Of a DNA stretch of 64,000 nt, positions 3,433 to 61,989 are shown piece after piece. Positions within the stretch are counted from its first letter, which is position 1. Each line of letters opens with the position of its first letter. Below the pieces are notes generated by a model. The model did no database searches, was not told where the DNA came from, and saw nothing but the letters and a program-made list of their open reading frames with translations. The stretch is from Peromyscus leucopus. Taxonomy: Eukaryota > Chordata > Mammalia > Rodentia > Cricetidae. The position numbers and the translations under genes were made by a program. The stretch lies in NCBI RefSeq assembly GCF_004664715.2, contig NC_051067.1:69520982-69584981 (forward strand), read 5' to 3'.

Positions 3433-5156
3433 CACATAGGAAAATAACAGTTTATAAAGGAAAAAAGGGAAACCCCATGTTAGGATGAGGTGGTTAATTT
3501 TAATTGGTCATGTTAATTAGGTGAGCCAACAGGGGCTGTTGATTGCTGGACTTCAATACTTTGATAGCTGGACCTTGGTAGTCAGCCTCAGTAGGAGGAA
3601 GTGGCCAAATAAGGGAATAGCCACCTTGGTGGCTAACTTCAGGAATGTAATCTAATGTTTTTTAGCAAGGCAGAGAGAATGGGAGAGAAGGGTAAGGCCT
3701 GCTGGAGCCATGCCTGCCATGCTTTTGCTGGCCAGAGTCCCTTCACCTACCCTGATGGTGATATTTCATCAAGCCAACAGTTCAACATTTGCACACTGAG
3801 TCATAGCACCATAATATCTTACTCACAGGACTGTATTTTCTCCAGGTGTTACTCTGTGAAGGTTTATTTTATTTTCTAATTTGTAACAGTCCTTAACTGA
3901 TGAGTATTATAGTCAATCTTAAGTTTTTTAAAAGTTATATGAAAGTAATTGAAGTAACAAACATTTATTTTAACATTGTGGCTTGCTTTCTTGAAGGCAT
4001 ATGAGCTAAATACATTTCTGGAGTCATATGAAAGCTCTACGCTTGGCAGGGCCCACCAGTGAATAAATTCCTAATGACTTGTTTTTAACAGAGTTGTCTG
4101 AATTGTGACAGAAGCAAGCATTTGGAAGCTGTCATTGACTGGCGGGTCACCAAACAAAATGATTTTCATTAATTATAGTCTTGTTAAATTAATCTCCTCC
4201 CAATAGTTGGGGCACTAGGCAGGCAATAAAACCAGCATAGAAAATGGTTTCTCCTTCCCTCCACTTCATATACCCTATCACTATCTAACTCCTCGGAGGG
4301 CTTCCCACTCATTGCCACTACCTGAGGCTTTTAAAGTTTAATATGACATGAACAATGTGCTGATGTGGTAGAAATAAGCTACTGTGATGGGCACTTTCCA
4401 AACTTTCCTGTGAAGACCCGAGAACCTTCATCCTAATAATAGTATGATAAGCCCTTATTCTTTTGGCTTCTAGAAACTAAATTGGGAAAAAACACATGGG
4501 AAAGAAATATGTTAGGAACTCACTCAACTTAGGTGTAGGGAAAGAGTGAGCAGTCATTATCTTTTCTCCAAAGGTTAAAGACTAAAGAAGATGCTATGAC
4601 TCCTTACCTCAAGGAAACATATCAAGAAATCATTATTTTTTTCTAATGACAGGAGAACTTTGTCCTTCTTCAGTTATTAATGATTGAGAAGAATATGTAT
4701 GCTTCTTTCAATTATACAAAAAAAGAAACTAATTTGATTACTGATTTTAAATTTTGTTTTAAATTTTCTAGTCTCATTAACATGAAGAGCTTTCCAGTGA
4801 GTGACATAATAGACACAAACTTATATACTTTCCCACCTAAGACAGCTTCAAATTAAAGCCCATCCTGTGAAGAGATTGATAATCACAAAATTAAACCTCT
4901 ATATCGCATATCCATATAACCAGAAGTGATTTTTATCATTGATGTGCAAAGTGAGATTTAAGACATTTCCCTGAGTTAGCAGGCCTCCAACTAACTGCAA
5001 TACACACACAGCCTCAGAGGCTCCTTGATAGATTTTCATATTTTGAAGGATTTGATACATGAAATCCCAATGATAAGATGATATAGTTTCTCCCACTTTA
5101 AGCTGAAGTGGCTTTTTTAGGAATGGGTAGCACTTCTGTGTCTGTTATTAAAATGA

Positions 5157-35401: not shown

Positions 35402-37455
35402 TTTCTTTGTTAATTTTCTTTATTAAGAAATTTTTTATTCATATTACATACCAACCACAGATTCTCCCTCTCATCCCTCCTCCCACTCCCCCCTCCCAGC
35501 CTTCTCCCCACAAACCATCCCCACATCCCCTCCTCTGAAAAGACAAGGTGGAGTCAGCAAAGCCTGGTATATTCAGTTGAGACAAGCCCAAACCCTTCCC
35601 CACCACATCAAGGCTGTGCAAGGTGTCCCACCATAGGTAATGGGCTCCAAAAAGCCAGATTGTTTATCAGGGATAAATTCTGATCCCACTGCCAAAGGCC
35701 CCTTATGTAGACCAAGCTGTCTGTTTTATATAGAGGACCTAGTCCAGTCCCATGCAGGCTCCCATGAACTAAAGTTCATGAGTTCCTACTACCTTGGTTA
35801 GGTTGTATCTGTAGATTTCCCCATCATGACCTTGATGCCCCTTGCTCATAGAATTCTTCTTCCCTCTCTTCAACTGGACTCCTGGAGCTCGTCCTGATGC
35901 TTGGCTATGGATCTCTGAATCTGCTTCTATCAGTTACTGGATGAAGGCTCTATGATGACAGTTAGGGTATTCACCAATCTGCTTACCTGGGTAGGCCAGC
36001 TTAGCCACCCTCTCCACTATGGCCAGTAGTCTAAGATGGAGTCATCTGTGTGGATTCCTGAGAACTTCCTTCACACCAGATTTCTCCTTATCTCCATGAT
36101 GTCTCCCTTTGTCAAGATATCTTTTTTATTGCTCTCCTACTCTGTCCCTGTTCCAGCTCGACCATCCCATTCCCTTATGTTCTCATCCCCCACCCTCTAC
36201 CCTCTATTTTCCCCCCCTTTGCCCCCAGGTTACTCAGGAGAGCCTATTTATTTCCCTTTCCTAGGGCAATCCATGAATCCCTCTTAGGGTCCTCCTTCTT
36301 AGCTAGCTTCTCTGGCACTGTAGATTGTAGTCTGGTTATCCTTTGCTTTACAACTAATATCCACTTATGAGTGCATACATACAATGCTTGTATTTCTAAA
36401 TCTGAGTCACCTCATTCAGGATGATATTTTCTAGTTTAATCCATTTGCCTGCAAATTTCATGATGTCATTGCTTTTTTGCTCCTGAGTAGTACTCCACTG
36501 TGTAAGTGCACCACATTTTTTTATCCATTCTTCAATTGAGGAGCATCTATGTTGTTTCCAAGTTCTGGCTATTATGGATAATGCTGCAATGAACATAGTT
36601 GTGCAAGTATCCTTGTGGTATGATTGAGCATTCCTTAGGTATATGCCAAAGAATGGTATCATTTCGGTCTTGAGGTAGATGGAGTCCCAATTTTCTGAGA
36701 AACCGCCATACTGATTTCCAAAGTGGCTGCACAAGTTTGCACTCCCACCAACAGTGTAGAGGTGTTCCTTTTGTTCCACATCCTCTCCAACATAGGCTGT
36801 CATTAGTGTTTTTGATCTTAGCCATTCTGACATGTGTAAGATGGTGTCTTAGAGTTGTTTTGATTTGCATTTCCCTGATGACTAAGGATGTTGAGTATTC
36901 CTTCAATATCTTTTGTCCATTTGAGATTCTTCTGTTGAGAATTCTCTTTTTAGATCTTTAGCCCATTTTTTAAATTGGATTGTTTGGTATTTTGATGTCT
37001 AGTTTCTTGAGTTCTTTATATATTTTGGAAATCAGTCCTCTGTCAAATGTGAGGTTGGTGAAGATCTTTTCCCATTCTGTAGGCTGTCATTTTGTCTTAT
37101 TTACAGTGTCTTTTGCCTTACAGAAGATTTTCAGTTTCAGGAGGTCCCATTTATTAATTGTTGTTCTCAGTGTCTGTGCTACTGGTGTTATATTCAGAAT
37201 GTGATCTCCTTGTGCCAAGGTGTTCAAGGCTACTTCCTACTTTCTCTTCTATCAGGTTCAGGGTAACTGGATTTATGTTGAGGTCTTTGATCCACTTAGA
37301 CTTGAGTTTTATGCATGGCAATAGATATGGATCTGTTTGCAATTTTCTACATGTTGACATCCAGTTATACCAATACCATTTGTTGAAGATGCTTTCTTTT
37401 TTCCATTATACAATTTTGACTGCTTTGTCAAAAATCAGGTGTGCATATGTGTGCA
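35402..37455 (-). mobile_element. L1 LINE, 5'-truncated, 2.05 kb
   Basis: This is the longest L1 piece in the window. On the minus strand it holds about 1.1 kb of ORF2 C-terminal region (37455-36390) followed by the 3' UTR. Recognisable ORF2 words include IKDLNINPVTLNLIEEKVGS, LLHCWWEC-like [20 protein letters not shown] and NDIMKFAGKW. These lie in different frames, so the reading frame is broken by frameshifts and the element is inactive. It is antisense to PLXDC2. Confidence 0.95.
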
Positions 37456-59364: not shown

Positions 59365-59895
59365 TGTGAGATCAGTGAACTTGAGTTTTCCTGGGGATCT
59401 TGGAATTTTCAAGAGCAGCTTTGGTCTGAATCGTAAAGTGTTCTTATTAATAAGATCAAACCCAGACCAGGTATTGGGGTGAAATGCTGGATGGTCAGAG
59501 AGACAGAACAAGACACAGCGAACCTCACCTGGCCAACTTCTCAGCTGATCTTGTTTCCTCAGCCTGGAAGCCTCTGTGTCCTCATCCCAATGGCTCTCAG
59601 CTGAACTGCTGCTCAAAAGCCTGAATGCTTAACCAGGCCAAATGCTTAACTAGCCAAATGCTACTAGTTTCTAGTCCTCATACCTTATATACCTTTCTGC
59701 CTTCTACCATGACTCCCTGGGATTAAAGGCATGAGTCACCATACTTGGCTATATCCTTGAACAGATGGATTTCTGCCTCTGGAATGCTAGGATTAAAGGC
59801 GTGTGCTACCACTGCCTACCCTCTATGTTTAATATTGTGGCTGTTCTGTCTTTGACCCTAGATAAGTTTATTTCCGGGAACACAATACCACCACA
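59365..59895 (-). mobile_element. 3' LTR of antisense non-autonomous ERV
   Basis: The minus strand begins TGTGGTGGTATTGTG right after a polypurine tract. It carries a TATA box (TATATAAGG, 59683-59691) and B1-box-like sequence ('gcctttaatcccaggga'), and matches the LTR at 61316-61778 from about 59473 to 59895. The outermost ~108 bp (59365-59472) have no counterpart in the other LTR. The outer end, tgtgagatcag on the + strand, is my best guess from the TG/CA rule. Confidence 0.75.
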
Positions 59896-59909: not shown

Positions 59910-59997
59910 TCTAAAATTTTAAAAAAAGATTATAACTTATACAAGAAAAATTATATCCAATAAGTATATACAATATACACAGTCAAGATTACATTAA

Positions 59998-60300
59998 CGA
60001 TGTCTAGTCCATTAACATTTGACAGATTCAGACAAAAAATTCCATTATATATATAACAATGTCCAGTCCAGTAACATTTGACAAATTCAGACAAAAAAAT
60101 TTCATTACTTATCTTATTTAAAACAAGTAATTCCTTTTTTAAAGTATTTTTTCTTTCCATAATAGATTCAGTAATCTACCTTTTGTCATTTTTATGTCTT
60201 CCTCTTTTTCTTTTTAGTGTAGAATCAGTGATCTACCCATTTATCCTATTATTCTTTATCTTTTTTTCTCAGAATAGATTCAATGATCTATCTCATATCT
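59998..60300 (-). repeat. Tandem motifs in ERV 3' internal region
   Basis: Two copies of an approximately 57-bp unit (with 'ccattaacatttgacagatt' versus 'ccagtaacatttgacaaatt') are followed by three spaced copies of a motif like 'aatagattcaatgatctatc' near 60163, 60223 and 60272. The position just upstream of the polypurine tract is where simple betaretroviruses keep RNA transport elements; any such role here is a guess. Confidence 0.7.
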
Positions 60301-60854
60301 ATATTCTTTTCTGTTTTCTTTCTTTTTTAAACAAAACTTCTGAATCTAATCTCCATGTTCAGCTTTTTTCCTGACCATTAACAATTAACAACTTGTAACC
60401 AACCACCATAAACAATGACAATATCCATAACTCATTAAATGACCAAAACCTCCCATCCCACCTCTTGGGAATGTGGGTGTCCTCTTCTTAAAATTACTTC
60501 CATCTTTAGGAAATCCTGAAAAGAAAATTTTGGGTTACTTGTCAAGTACTGTATCATTTGTCCAGTTGCTGCATAATGAGAAAGTGCAGGGCTTGTTTCA
60601 AGTCCTTATTCAAGTAGTCTGTCAGGCTGGATAATCTCAGCTAGCCATCTCAAAATTGTCCTAAGCAGTTTGTAGTCCAAAATCAATCTTTTGGTGGTGT
60701 TAATCAGCTTAATGGCTTTACTACAGTCCTTGTGGAATCATCATTGTGGAGTCCTGTTGTCTTTTTGAAGATTTCAAAGTCACCGTTAGGCGTGGTCATG
60801 GTTCACTTTTTTGGGGGGTGGGAGAGGGGCCTTTCTGTGGTTTGGAGTAATCAT

Positions 60855-61115
60855 AGTCTAATAAATGTCTGTCTTTTGGAACCATAAACATTCTTCCCTA
60901 GAAAAGAAAATCTTCACAGCAATTTCTTCCCACCATTTGTTTTACCAAACTTTTCCAAACTGACCTTTGCCGATGCTTTCTTGTAACACGATGGTCCTGG
61001 CAATTGTTCTCTGAACAATTTGTCCCAGGTGGCTGCATCACTACAGTCACCAACATGGTGAGAAGAAGCCAGCAACTCGGAGCAGCTGCCACTTCCTCCA
61101 TGGTCCCACCACTGT
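60855..61115 (-). pseudogene. TGFBR1 (ALK5)-derived segment captured in ERV
   Basis: On the minus strand a start codon at 61101, in context GGTGGGACCATGGAGG, opens MEEVAAAPSCWLLLTMLVTV then VMQPPGT. This resembles the signal peptide of TGF-beta receptor type I, encoded by its exon 1. From 61016 downward another frame reads [18 protein letters not shown], then QFGKVW, stop, NKWWEEIAVKIFFSREE, and after CLWFQKTDIY another stop. This is the receptor's GS-box end, glycine-rich loop (GxGxFGxV) and the catalytic-lysine strand (AVKIF), ending soon after. KW and EE in the loop strand favour TGFBR1 over the activin receptor ACVR1B. No intron separates the two pieces, and the ectodomain, membrane helix and rest of the kinase are absent. 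Two stops and the frame offset make it a pseudogene. It lies about 190 bp inside the 5' end of the ERV. Confidence 0.9.
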
Positions 61116-61300
61116 TTTTGGCTAGGTCCCAGCTGAAGCTTCTCCTTAGCAAGTCTCCTAGGATGGCCTCAAACTCGGGATCCTCCTGCCTCTGCCCCTT
61201 CAGCAAATCTAACCCGCATGCATCACCACAACCGGACGAGTGCAGCTCTGGCCTGAGCTGGGGCCCACAAGCACCTTTTTTTTATGAATTCGTACCACGA

Positions 61301-61313
61301 ACGTTGGGCGCCA
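61301..61313 (-). promoter_or_regulatory. ERV primer binding site (tRNA-Lys1,2 type)
   Basis: The minus strand TGGCGCCCAACGT lies two bases inside the right LTR and matches the first 13 bases of the tRNA-Lys(1,2) primer site used by several betaretroviruses and lentiviruses. The remaining 5 bases of the usual 18 do not match well. Confidence 0.85.
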
Positions 61314-61315
61314 GA

Positions 61316-61778
61316 TGGAGCATGAACCTTAAATTTTTATTGGGGTGAACTGGAAGATCAGAGAACCAGAACAAGCCACAGCTACCTCACCTCACCGGAT
61401 CCTCAGCTGATCTTGTTTCCTCAGACTGGAGGCCTCTGAGTCCTCATCCAGAATGGGTCTCAGCTGAACTGCGTTGCTACAAGCCTGAACACTTAACCAG
61501 CCAAATGCTTCTAGTTTCTGGTCCTCATGCCTTATATACCTTTCTGCCTTCTACCATGACTCCCTGGGATTAAAGGCTCACTTTCTGGGATTAAAGGCAT
61601 GAGTCACCATACTTGGCTATATCCTTGAACAGATAGATTTCTGCTTCTGGAATGTTAGGATTAAAGGCGTGTGCTACCACTGCCTATCCTCTATGTTTAA
61701 TATTGTGGCTGTTCTGTCTCTGACCCCAGATAAGTTTATTAGAGTGCACAATATTTCAGGGAACACAATACCACCACA
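61316..61778 (-). mobile_element. 5' LTR of antisense non-autonomous ERV
   Basis: A 463-bp LTR, on the minus strand TGTGGTGGTATTGTG...GCTCCA, with a TATA box (TATATAAGG, 61530-61538) and an AATAAA signal near its 3' end. It contains two B1-box-like 'gggattaaagg' copies about 20 bp apart plus another copy further in; the left LTR lacks one. It also has an extra 'agagtgcacaatattt' absent from the left LTR. The two LTRs are thus related but not twins. Confidence 0.85.
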
Positions 61779-61989
61779 AGCAGCCCTTTAGTTATGACCT
61801 CAGGCAACTTGATTTTATTTAGATCCCTACTAGGCCTCAGCATCAGGAGACTGTGGGCAAGATGGCAGCTCCCAGGTCTGCTCCTGTCTGCCACTTTCCT
61901 GTTACGGTTCCAAAATACATGCTTCTCTAGAGGTAGGGATGCAGGACAAGTACCTGTATTACTGACCGTCATCTTTCACTTTGAAAACT

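Follow-up and report, generated by a model that had tools for sequence, protein, structure and literature searches.

Tgfbr1 exons inside a high-copy, retrovirus-like repeat family in the genome of Peromyscus leucopus

The element in the window and its host-derived block

The window, a stretch of 64,000 nucleotides of Peromyscus leucopus DNA (C5:69520982-69584981), carries on its minus strand an LTR retrotransposon, or endogenous retrovirus, which encloses a piece of the TGF-beta receptor type 1 gene, Tgfbr1 (Table 1). The element consists of a 5' LTR, a primer site, a leader, a fragment of a SINE, the Tgfbr1 block, an internal 3' region, a polypurine tract and a 3' LTR, in that order. An earlier note, made from the letters of this DNA alone, had described two related LTRs and a primer site around the block, and both were found: the two LTRs are about 91-92% identical, with a K2P distance of 0.079-0.098 in which the choice of columns decides, and GCTGCT stands outside both of them. 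The primer site, TGGCGCCCAACGT, is presumably of the tRNA-Lys(1,2) type. A 6-bp target duplication and a Lys-type primer site are linked to betaretroviruses, and their joint presence would fit the label of a betaretrovirus-like (ERVK) element. The element carries no gag, pol or env frames, as in the non-autonomous mys-type families. Its longest stop-to-stop frame has 148 codons, and six minus-strand inner frames of 42-127 codons gave no Pfam match at E 1.

Table 1. Features of the LTR element in the window, in the direction of its own 5' to 3' strand.
Feature	Position	Strand	Basis or remark
LTR element, 2.36 kb	61778-59420	minus	paired LTRs, primer site, polypurine tract, 6-bp target duplication
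Target-site duplication, left copy, GCTGCT	61779..61784	minus	same 6-mer directly outside both LTRs
5' LTR (TGTGGTGG...CTCCA)	61316..61778	minus	aligned to 3' LTR; ends set by eye
Primer binding site	61301..61313	minus	read directly; 2 nt past LTR end
B1-type SINE fragment, sense	61157..61250	minus	between leader and Tgfbr1 part
Tgfbr1 5'UTR (about 56 nt here) and exon 1	61022..61157	minus	start codon 61101; aligned to same-genome exon 1, shuffle test
Tgfbr1 exon 4, exon nt 13-184	60850..61018	minus	two in-frame stops
Tgfbr1 exon 6 scrap, CDS 1099-1116	60834..60851	minus	18-nt local match, alone not significant
Internal 3' region	59911..60833	minus	no Tgfbr1 match or recognised gene; family-wide
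Polypurine tract, acaaaaaaggggaaa	59896..59910	minus	read directly; adjoins 3' LTR
3' LTR	59420..59895	minus	right end placed by target duplication
Target-site duplication, right copy, GCTGCT	59414..59419	minus	matches left copy

The SINE fragment is one that we take to be B1. Its test covered only about 61157-61196, where it matches three other repeats of the window at 81-85% over about 40 nt, and the remainder was assigned by eye. SINE-like stretches (acgcctttaatcc) also lie inside the LTRs, at 61640-61684 and 59772-59816; as they match repeats elsewhere in the window, the LTRs seem to have absorbed SINE sequence. Elsewhere, at 36396-36957 of the minus strand, two open frames that overlap each other (150 and 136 codons) resemble, as we assume, the C-terminal part of LINE-1 ORF2. 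Scans with Rfam at curated thresholds and for tRNAs were empty, and four exact patterns scanned in viral contigs found no match. A 20-mer of the LTR did match three gut metagenome genomes among bacterial contigs, which was taken as chance.

The TGFBR1-like character that the earlier note had read on the minus strand is borne out. Compared with PDB chains, the minus-strand frame of 60855-61115 matches TGF-beta receptor type 1 first (E 4.5e-20), and the next receptors, BMPR1B and ACVR1, reach 1.7e-15 and 3.3e-15 at best. Against the Tgfbr1 gene of the same genome, identity is 85% over exon 4 nt 13-184 and 70% over 121 columns of 5'UTR and exon 1 (E 5.9e-10). Aligned to the presumed human mRNA sequence, exon 4 scores 99 (at most 20 in 100 shuffles), and 5'UTR with exon 1 scores 30 (at most 16.5 in 300 shuffles). 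Pfam finds a sub-threshold kinase match in the Tgfbr1 fragment and nothing else. No gene outside the TGFBR1/ALK-type receptors matched better, Tgfbr1, including the gene of the same genome, being the best match. ALK4 and ALK7 were considered as the source and dismissed because exon 1, exon 4 and the exon 6 end match same-genome Tgfbr1, the comparison being with Tgfbr1 and not with the ALK4 and ALK7 genes themselves.

The span given in the note, 60855..61115, was right in its identity and too narrow in its extent. Tgfbr1-derived sequence runs from about 61157 to 60834, without exons 2 and 3, and includes the scrap of exon 6, which together with exon 4 marks an internal deletion common to the short copies of the family. 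The note had also placed a Met start and a signal peptide upstream. The start codon is indeed found in exon 1; in the window copy, the frame of the signal peptide differs from that of the kinase part. About 14 nt are missing at the exon 1/exon 4 joint of the window and are present in the other copies printed.

Copies, joints and subfamilies across the genome

The genome searched comprises 2.475 Gb in 1840 contigs. It holds the real Tgfbr1 gene, introns included, on contig C2, with exon 1 near 58433588 (97 coding nt up to the donor) and exons 2 and 3 near 58466216 and 58470549. Exons 4-6 have introns and AG/GT sites on both sides, the acceptor of exon 7 is present, and the end of exon 6 reads GTAGGCACTAAAAG followed by gtacac. 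Pieces of a related LTR lie antisense downstream of exon 7, in intron 7 of this real gene (L071 4564-4996, C2).

A count of copies, as the earlier note had proposed, was obtained from the exon 1/exon 4 joint. A 30-letter pattern allowed up to three mismatches is found at 1054 places (547 forward, 507 reverse), counted by pattern and not all read, and the reversed-pattern control gives 0. When the 326-nt block served as query, 1551 first-look candidates yielded 40 scored matches. At the protein level 87 matches were obtained; many lack introns and fall within residues of about 190-380, which correspond to exons 4 to 6, and four are exons 2-5 of the Tgfbr1 gene itself. The best 30 of these 87 match within CDS 575-1130, with none in CDS 98-574 or 1131-1512. 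Furthermore, the internal 3' region has 46 matched stretches among those listed and 6510 first-look candidates in the genome.

From these searches 56 distinct copies, 26 of a short and 30 of a long form, were read as best matches and not as a random sample. They comprise 20 of the 39 other block matches, five places of the internal 3' region, the best 30 of the 87 protein matches and the window; the duplicate loci L012, L015 and L019 were removed ahead of the counts of copy context. The internal 3' region is present in 55 of the 56 (exception L055), the B1 fragment in 53 (exceptions L065, L066 and L069) and exon 1 in 50, and no copy matches exons 2-3 or exons 7-9. LTR matches were counted at 100 columns or more because short ones may be SINE cross-matches. 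At this threshold they lie upstream in 34 copies, downstream in 33, on at least one side in 46 and on both sides in 21 (14 of the 26 short and seven of the 30 long copies), the long copies having been read only 1500 nt outwards, so that LTRs absent there may lie farther out. When shorter matches are included, the counts are 41 upstream, 37 downstream, 31 on both sides and 47 on at least one. Element sequence adjoins the Tgfbr1 block in every one of the 56 copies, and the order of leader and B1 fragment, Tgfbr1 and 3' region is constant in nearly all copies read, L065 and L066 being rearranged. An exact 6-mer target duplication was found in four of 13 copies tested, the window included; the other nine have none at their assumed ends, with one further duplication of 5/6 by eye. 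The captured segment thus moves with the element. At L021, a second partial piece of exon 4 (4430-4498) lies inside the downstream LTR region and suggests a nested or recombined element.

The copies bear on the simplest reading of the locus, namely an ordinary Tgfbr1 pseudogene that lies by chance beside an endogenous retrovirus or was hit by one. Nothing beyond the single-copy view of the window speaks for it. However, the same arrangement recurs at the 56 distinct places read and at 1054 joint matches, and in the window one target duplication encloses the whole from LTR to LTR. The earlier note had seen in copies outside LTR elements the sign of such a pseudogene, and none of the 56 lacks both LTR and internal 3' region. 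Because of the copies, this reading is regarded as refuted, with practically no chance of being correct.

The joints of the block are informative as to the nature of the captured molecule. In the copies, the last letters of exon 1 (GGGACAAAGG) pass directly into the first letters of exon 4 (GTTTACTGCTGCTTGTTCAG), and the 30 long copies carry exons 4, 5 and 6 without introns. Where intact, the right edge passes from GTAGGCACTAAAAG to TTTTCTGCAGTGAACC, exactly at the end of exon 6; this joint was found at nine places with 1-3 mismatches and at none exactly, with a control of 0. Since introns are absent and the joints lie at real exon ends, a spliced mRNA was taken up, as the earlier note had held; both the inner joint and the right edge coincide exactly with exon boundaries, which speaks for splicing rather than random breakage. 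At its left edge, about 64 nt upstream of the ATG, the block adjoins the B1 fragment with a short GAGGC match. An alignment with exon 1 of the real gene told B1 from 5'UTR, homology to the gene beginning at this distance from the ATG. In many long copies the joint of exon 6 and element is occupied by CA or A runs; the CA runs, seen for example in L041, L042, L043, L046, L049 and L066, vary in length and have apparently grown from GGCACTAAAAG.

The two forms of the family are related by a deletion. Exon 4 ends at nt 184 in all 26 short copies except L020 (182), and therefore one deletion founded the short subfamily. Among the other 25 distinct short copies, four (L022, L031, L034 and L035) match the exon 6 end over 31 nt. 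The copies show that the deletion, which runs from nt 184 of exon 4 to the exon 6 end, came after the capture, and that the window belongs to the resulting short subfamily.

Another route by which spliced mRNA could have entered the family has to be considered. A processed pseudogene of an exon-skipped Tgfbr1 mRNA, made by a LINE, might have landed in one LTR element that then spread. A single insertion of this kind would likewise give a single shared set of joints, a 5' edge about 64 nt before the ATG suits a copy reaching near the start of the mRNA, and the A-rich or CA runs at the right joint recall it in many long copies. LINE retrocopies normally retain the 3' end and lose the 5' end, whereas here the 5' end is kept and the 3' end lost. 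The block stops at exon 6, with no match to exons 7-9 in any of the 56 copies, and no poly(A) stands at the right joint in copies with that joint intact. A likeness to exons 7-9 after exon 6 was tempting by eye; over the 500 nt downstream of exon 6, nine long copies show no match to exons 7-9 and score within shuffle range. Hence the hallmark of a processed pseudogene, an mRNA 3' end with poly(A), is absent from the elements at exons 7-9 and the joints, and origin by way of a LINE is considered quite improbable.

Age, coding constraint and a possible path of capture

The age of the insertions was estimated from LTR pairs that were hand-cut from BLAST spans. The median K2P distance is 0.079 (range 0.027-0.165) for 13 short-form pairs and 0.128 (range 0.067-0.434) for seven long-form pairs; two of the long pairs are short (146 and 85 columns), and the value of 0.434 comes from only 85 columns. 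In a tree of exons 4-6 with 27 long copies (L065, L066 and L069 omitted), the copies are split from the gene and the presumed human sequence with support of 99/97, which places the capture within the rodent line. The median end branch is 0.078, and the own branches of the gene and of human are 0.0066 and 0.086. The inner forks of the tree are mostly weak, with 17 of 26 open and two starred. In exon 4 of the window, 11 of 103 non-CpG sites at codon positions 1 and 2 differ from the presumed human sequence. This exceeds the prediction from half the LTR-LTR distance (binomial P 0.001), and the capture therefore seems older than the insertion in the window; against the full distance the excess is not significant (P 0.11).

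The block has diverged from the gene with little regard to codon position. With CpG positions and gaps excluded, divergence at positions 1/2/3 is 7.6/6.8/8.8% in 30 long copies and 9.8/6.9/9.2% in 20 short copies; the tally for the window, 6/49, 2/51 and 4/53, is small and uneven. Between the gene and the presumed human sequence, by comparison, 43 of 45 differences fall at third positions. The nearly even divergence indicates that no clear coding constraint acted on the drifting block, and the near-neutral codon pattern speaks for a putative non-coding passenger. The earlier note had likened the element to acute oncoretroviruses. Transduction is upheld; nothing shows an oncogene-like action of the piece, whose codon pattern speaks for a non-coding passenger.

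It might be supposed, on the other hand, that the captured piece was once useful and later decayed: a short hybrid protein of signal peptide, GS box and kinase part, or its RNA, would have aided the element, perhaps through interference with TGF-beta signalling or through silencing of Tgfbr1. The ancestral joint of exons 1, 4, 5 and 6 is in frame with a stop codon directly after, the hybrid frame from the exon 1 start is still fully open in one of 30 long copies (225 codons), and in the short subfamily exon 1 survived along with exon 4 as far as nt 184. Yet an in-frame skip is expected by chance in one case out of three, the whole frame is open in no other long copy examined, so that one in 30 fits plain decay, and the codon-position divergence is nearly even. 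Past usefulness of this kind is accordingly judged very improbable. There is also a small chance that the hybrid frame, or RNA of roughly a thousand copies, favoured the element or put the host gene under pressure, with small RNAs directed at Tgfbr1 exons 1 and 4 as one conceivable means. If true, the family would correspond, in the germline, to an acute transforming retrovirus, preserved as a fossil in the form of repeats.

On the whole evidence, a single capture of an exon-skipped Tgfbr1 mRNA by a betaretrovirus-like element is very probable, as is the spread of Tgfbr1 block and element as a unit. Host exons without introns lie inside the element and the captured segment moves with it, which are features of retroviral transduction. 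The captured mRNA would have been a spliced, exon-skipped Tgfbr1 transcript with 5'UTR, exon 1, exon 4, exon 5 and exon 6. Such a molecule could arise if exons 2-3 were skipped and the donor of exon 6 were spliced into an element that lay in sense orientation within intron 6 of Tgfbr1 and acted as a splice trap. The chimeric mRNA so formed would already end in retroviral sequence and an LTR, and could enter one particle together with an element genome. Reverse transcriptase, on nearing the mRNA's 5' end, might then switch to the leader template, with the short GAGGC homology to the B1 fragment. The resulting hybrid would retain primer site, polypurine tract and LTRs and would presumably be copied in trans by an autonomous mysTR-like relative. 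Copying in trans is suggested by the absence of genes from the element and by the non-autonomous ERVK subfamilies of the deer mouse (PMC10089650).

Some findings tell against parts of this path. A splice trap in intron 6 is judged somewhat less likely than not, because the present intron 6 (2178 nt, searched over its whole length) holds no part of the LTR element. Moreover, the letters directly downstream of exon 6, TTTTCTGCAG, resemble a splice acceptor, a sequence that a simple splice would exclude. The right joint could instead be a template switch that fell at an exon end. The proposed path also leaves the B1 fragment on the left side unexplained.

Relation to known systems

Endogenous retroviruses with captured host mRNA have been described before; the Tgfbr1 receptor as cargo and a copy number of about a thousand were not found in print. 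The earlier note knew of no retroviral capture of a TGF-beta receptor sequence, and no report of Tgfbr1 capture by an endogenous retrovirus was found among the papers listed from the accessible literature, largely without subscription papers. The family may already be catalogued as a repeat with its origin unrecorded. For one family of non-autonomous, retrovirus-like repeats, the 'unrelated' inner part is hereby traced to the spliced mRNA of a host receptor, with its cuts at exon boundaries, and the order of events (capture, decay, internal deletion and spread) can be read from copies within one genome. Transduction of host genes thus becomes testable as a source of new mammalian repeat families. 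In practical terms, about a thousand Tgfbr1-like stretches can mislead Tgfbr1 annotation, RNA-seq mapping, probes and guide design in the animal studied.

Acute transforming retroviruses capture host genes by read-through or splicing plus template switching. Those of v-src or v-sis type resemble the present family in being replication-defective, in carrying intronless host exons and, probably, in needing a helper (PMC13297096). In contrast to them, the family shows no sign of selection for the captured protein, and it has spread as a germline repeat family and not as a tumour virus. The inner sequence of mouse ETn has, to our knowledge, no known gene as its origin. ETn/MusD of mouse is described as a non-autonomous ERVK moved in trans by a coding relative (PMC10089650); the Tgfbr1-bearing family would be a similar non-autonomous, ERVK-like case, presumably moved in trans as well.

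In the deer mouse, high-copy, non-autonomous ERVK subfamilies related to mysTR and without ORFs have been described (PMC10089650). As proposed there, recombination swapped the inner part of an autonomous element for non-homologous sequence, and the stretch before the 3' LTR was kept. The present family is likewise high-copy and ERVK-like and, to judge from the element in the window, without ORFs. Unlike in those subfamilies as described, the replacing sequence is here identified as Tgfbr1 exons; section 7 of that paper gives no origin, and 'TGF' occurs nowhere in its main text.

The closest germline precedents come from crocodilians, in which endogenous retroviruses captured the host genes KIT-ligand (CrocERV29) and nectin3 (CrocERV31) (PMC4299795). 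Nine copies of CrocERV29 retain, between pol and env, a whole soluble KIT-ligand ORF under purifying selection, and the nectin3-derived ORF of CrocERV31 is present in six insertions in one species (PMC4299795). As in these cases, so far as described, host mRNA lies inside a germline retrovirus and is inherited by several copies. Unlike in the crocodilian elements, the Tgfbr1 piece is exon-skipped and without sign of coding constraint, and it is carried by a short element with about a thousand joint matches.
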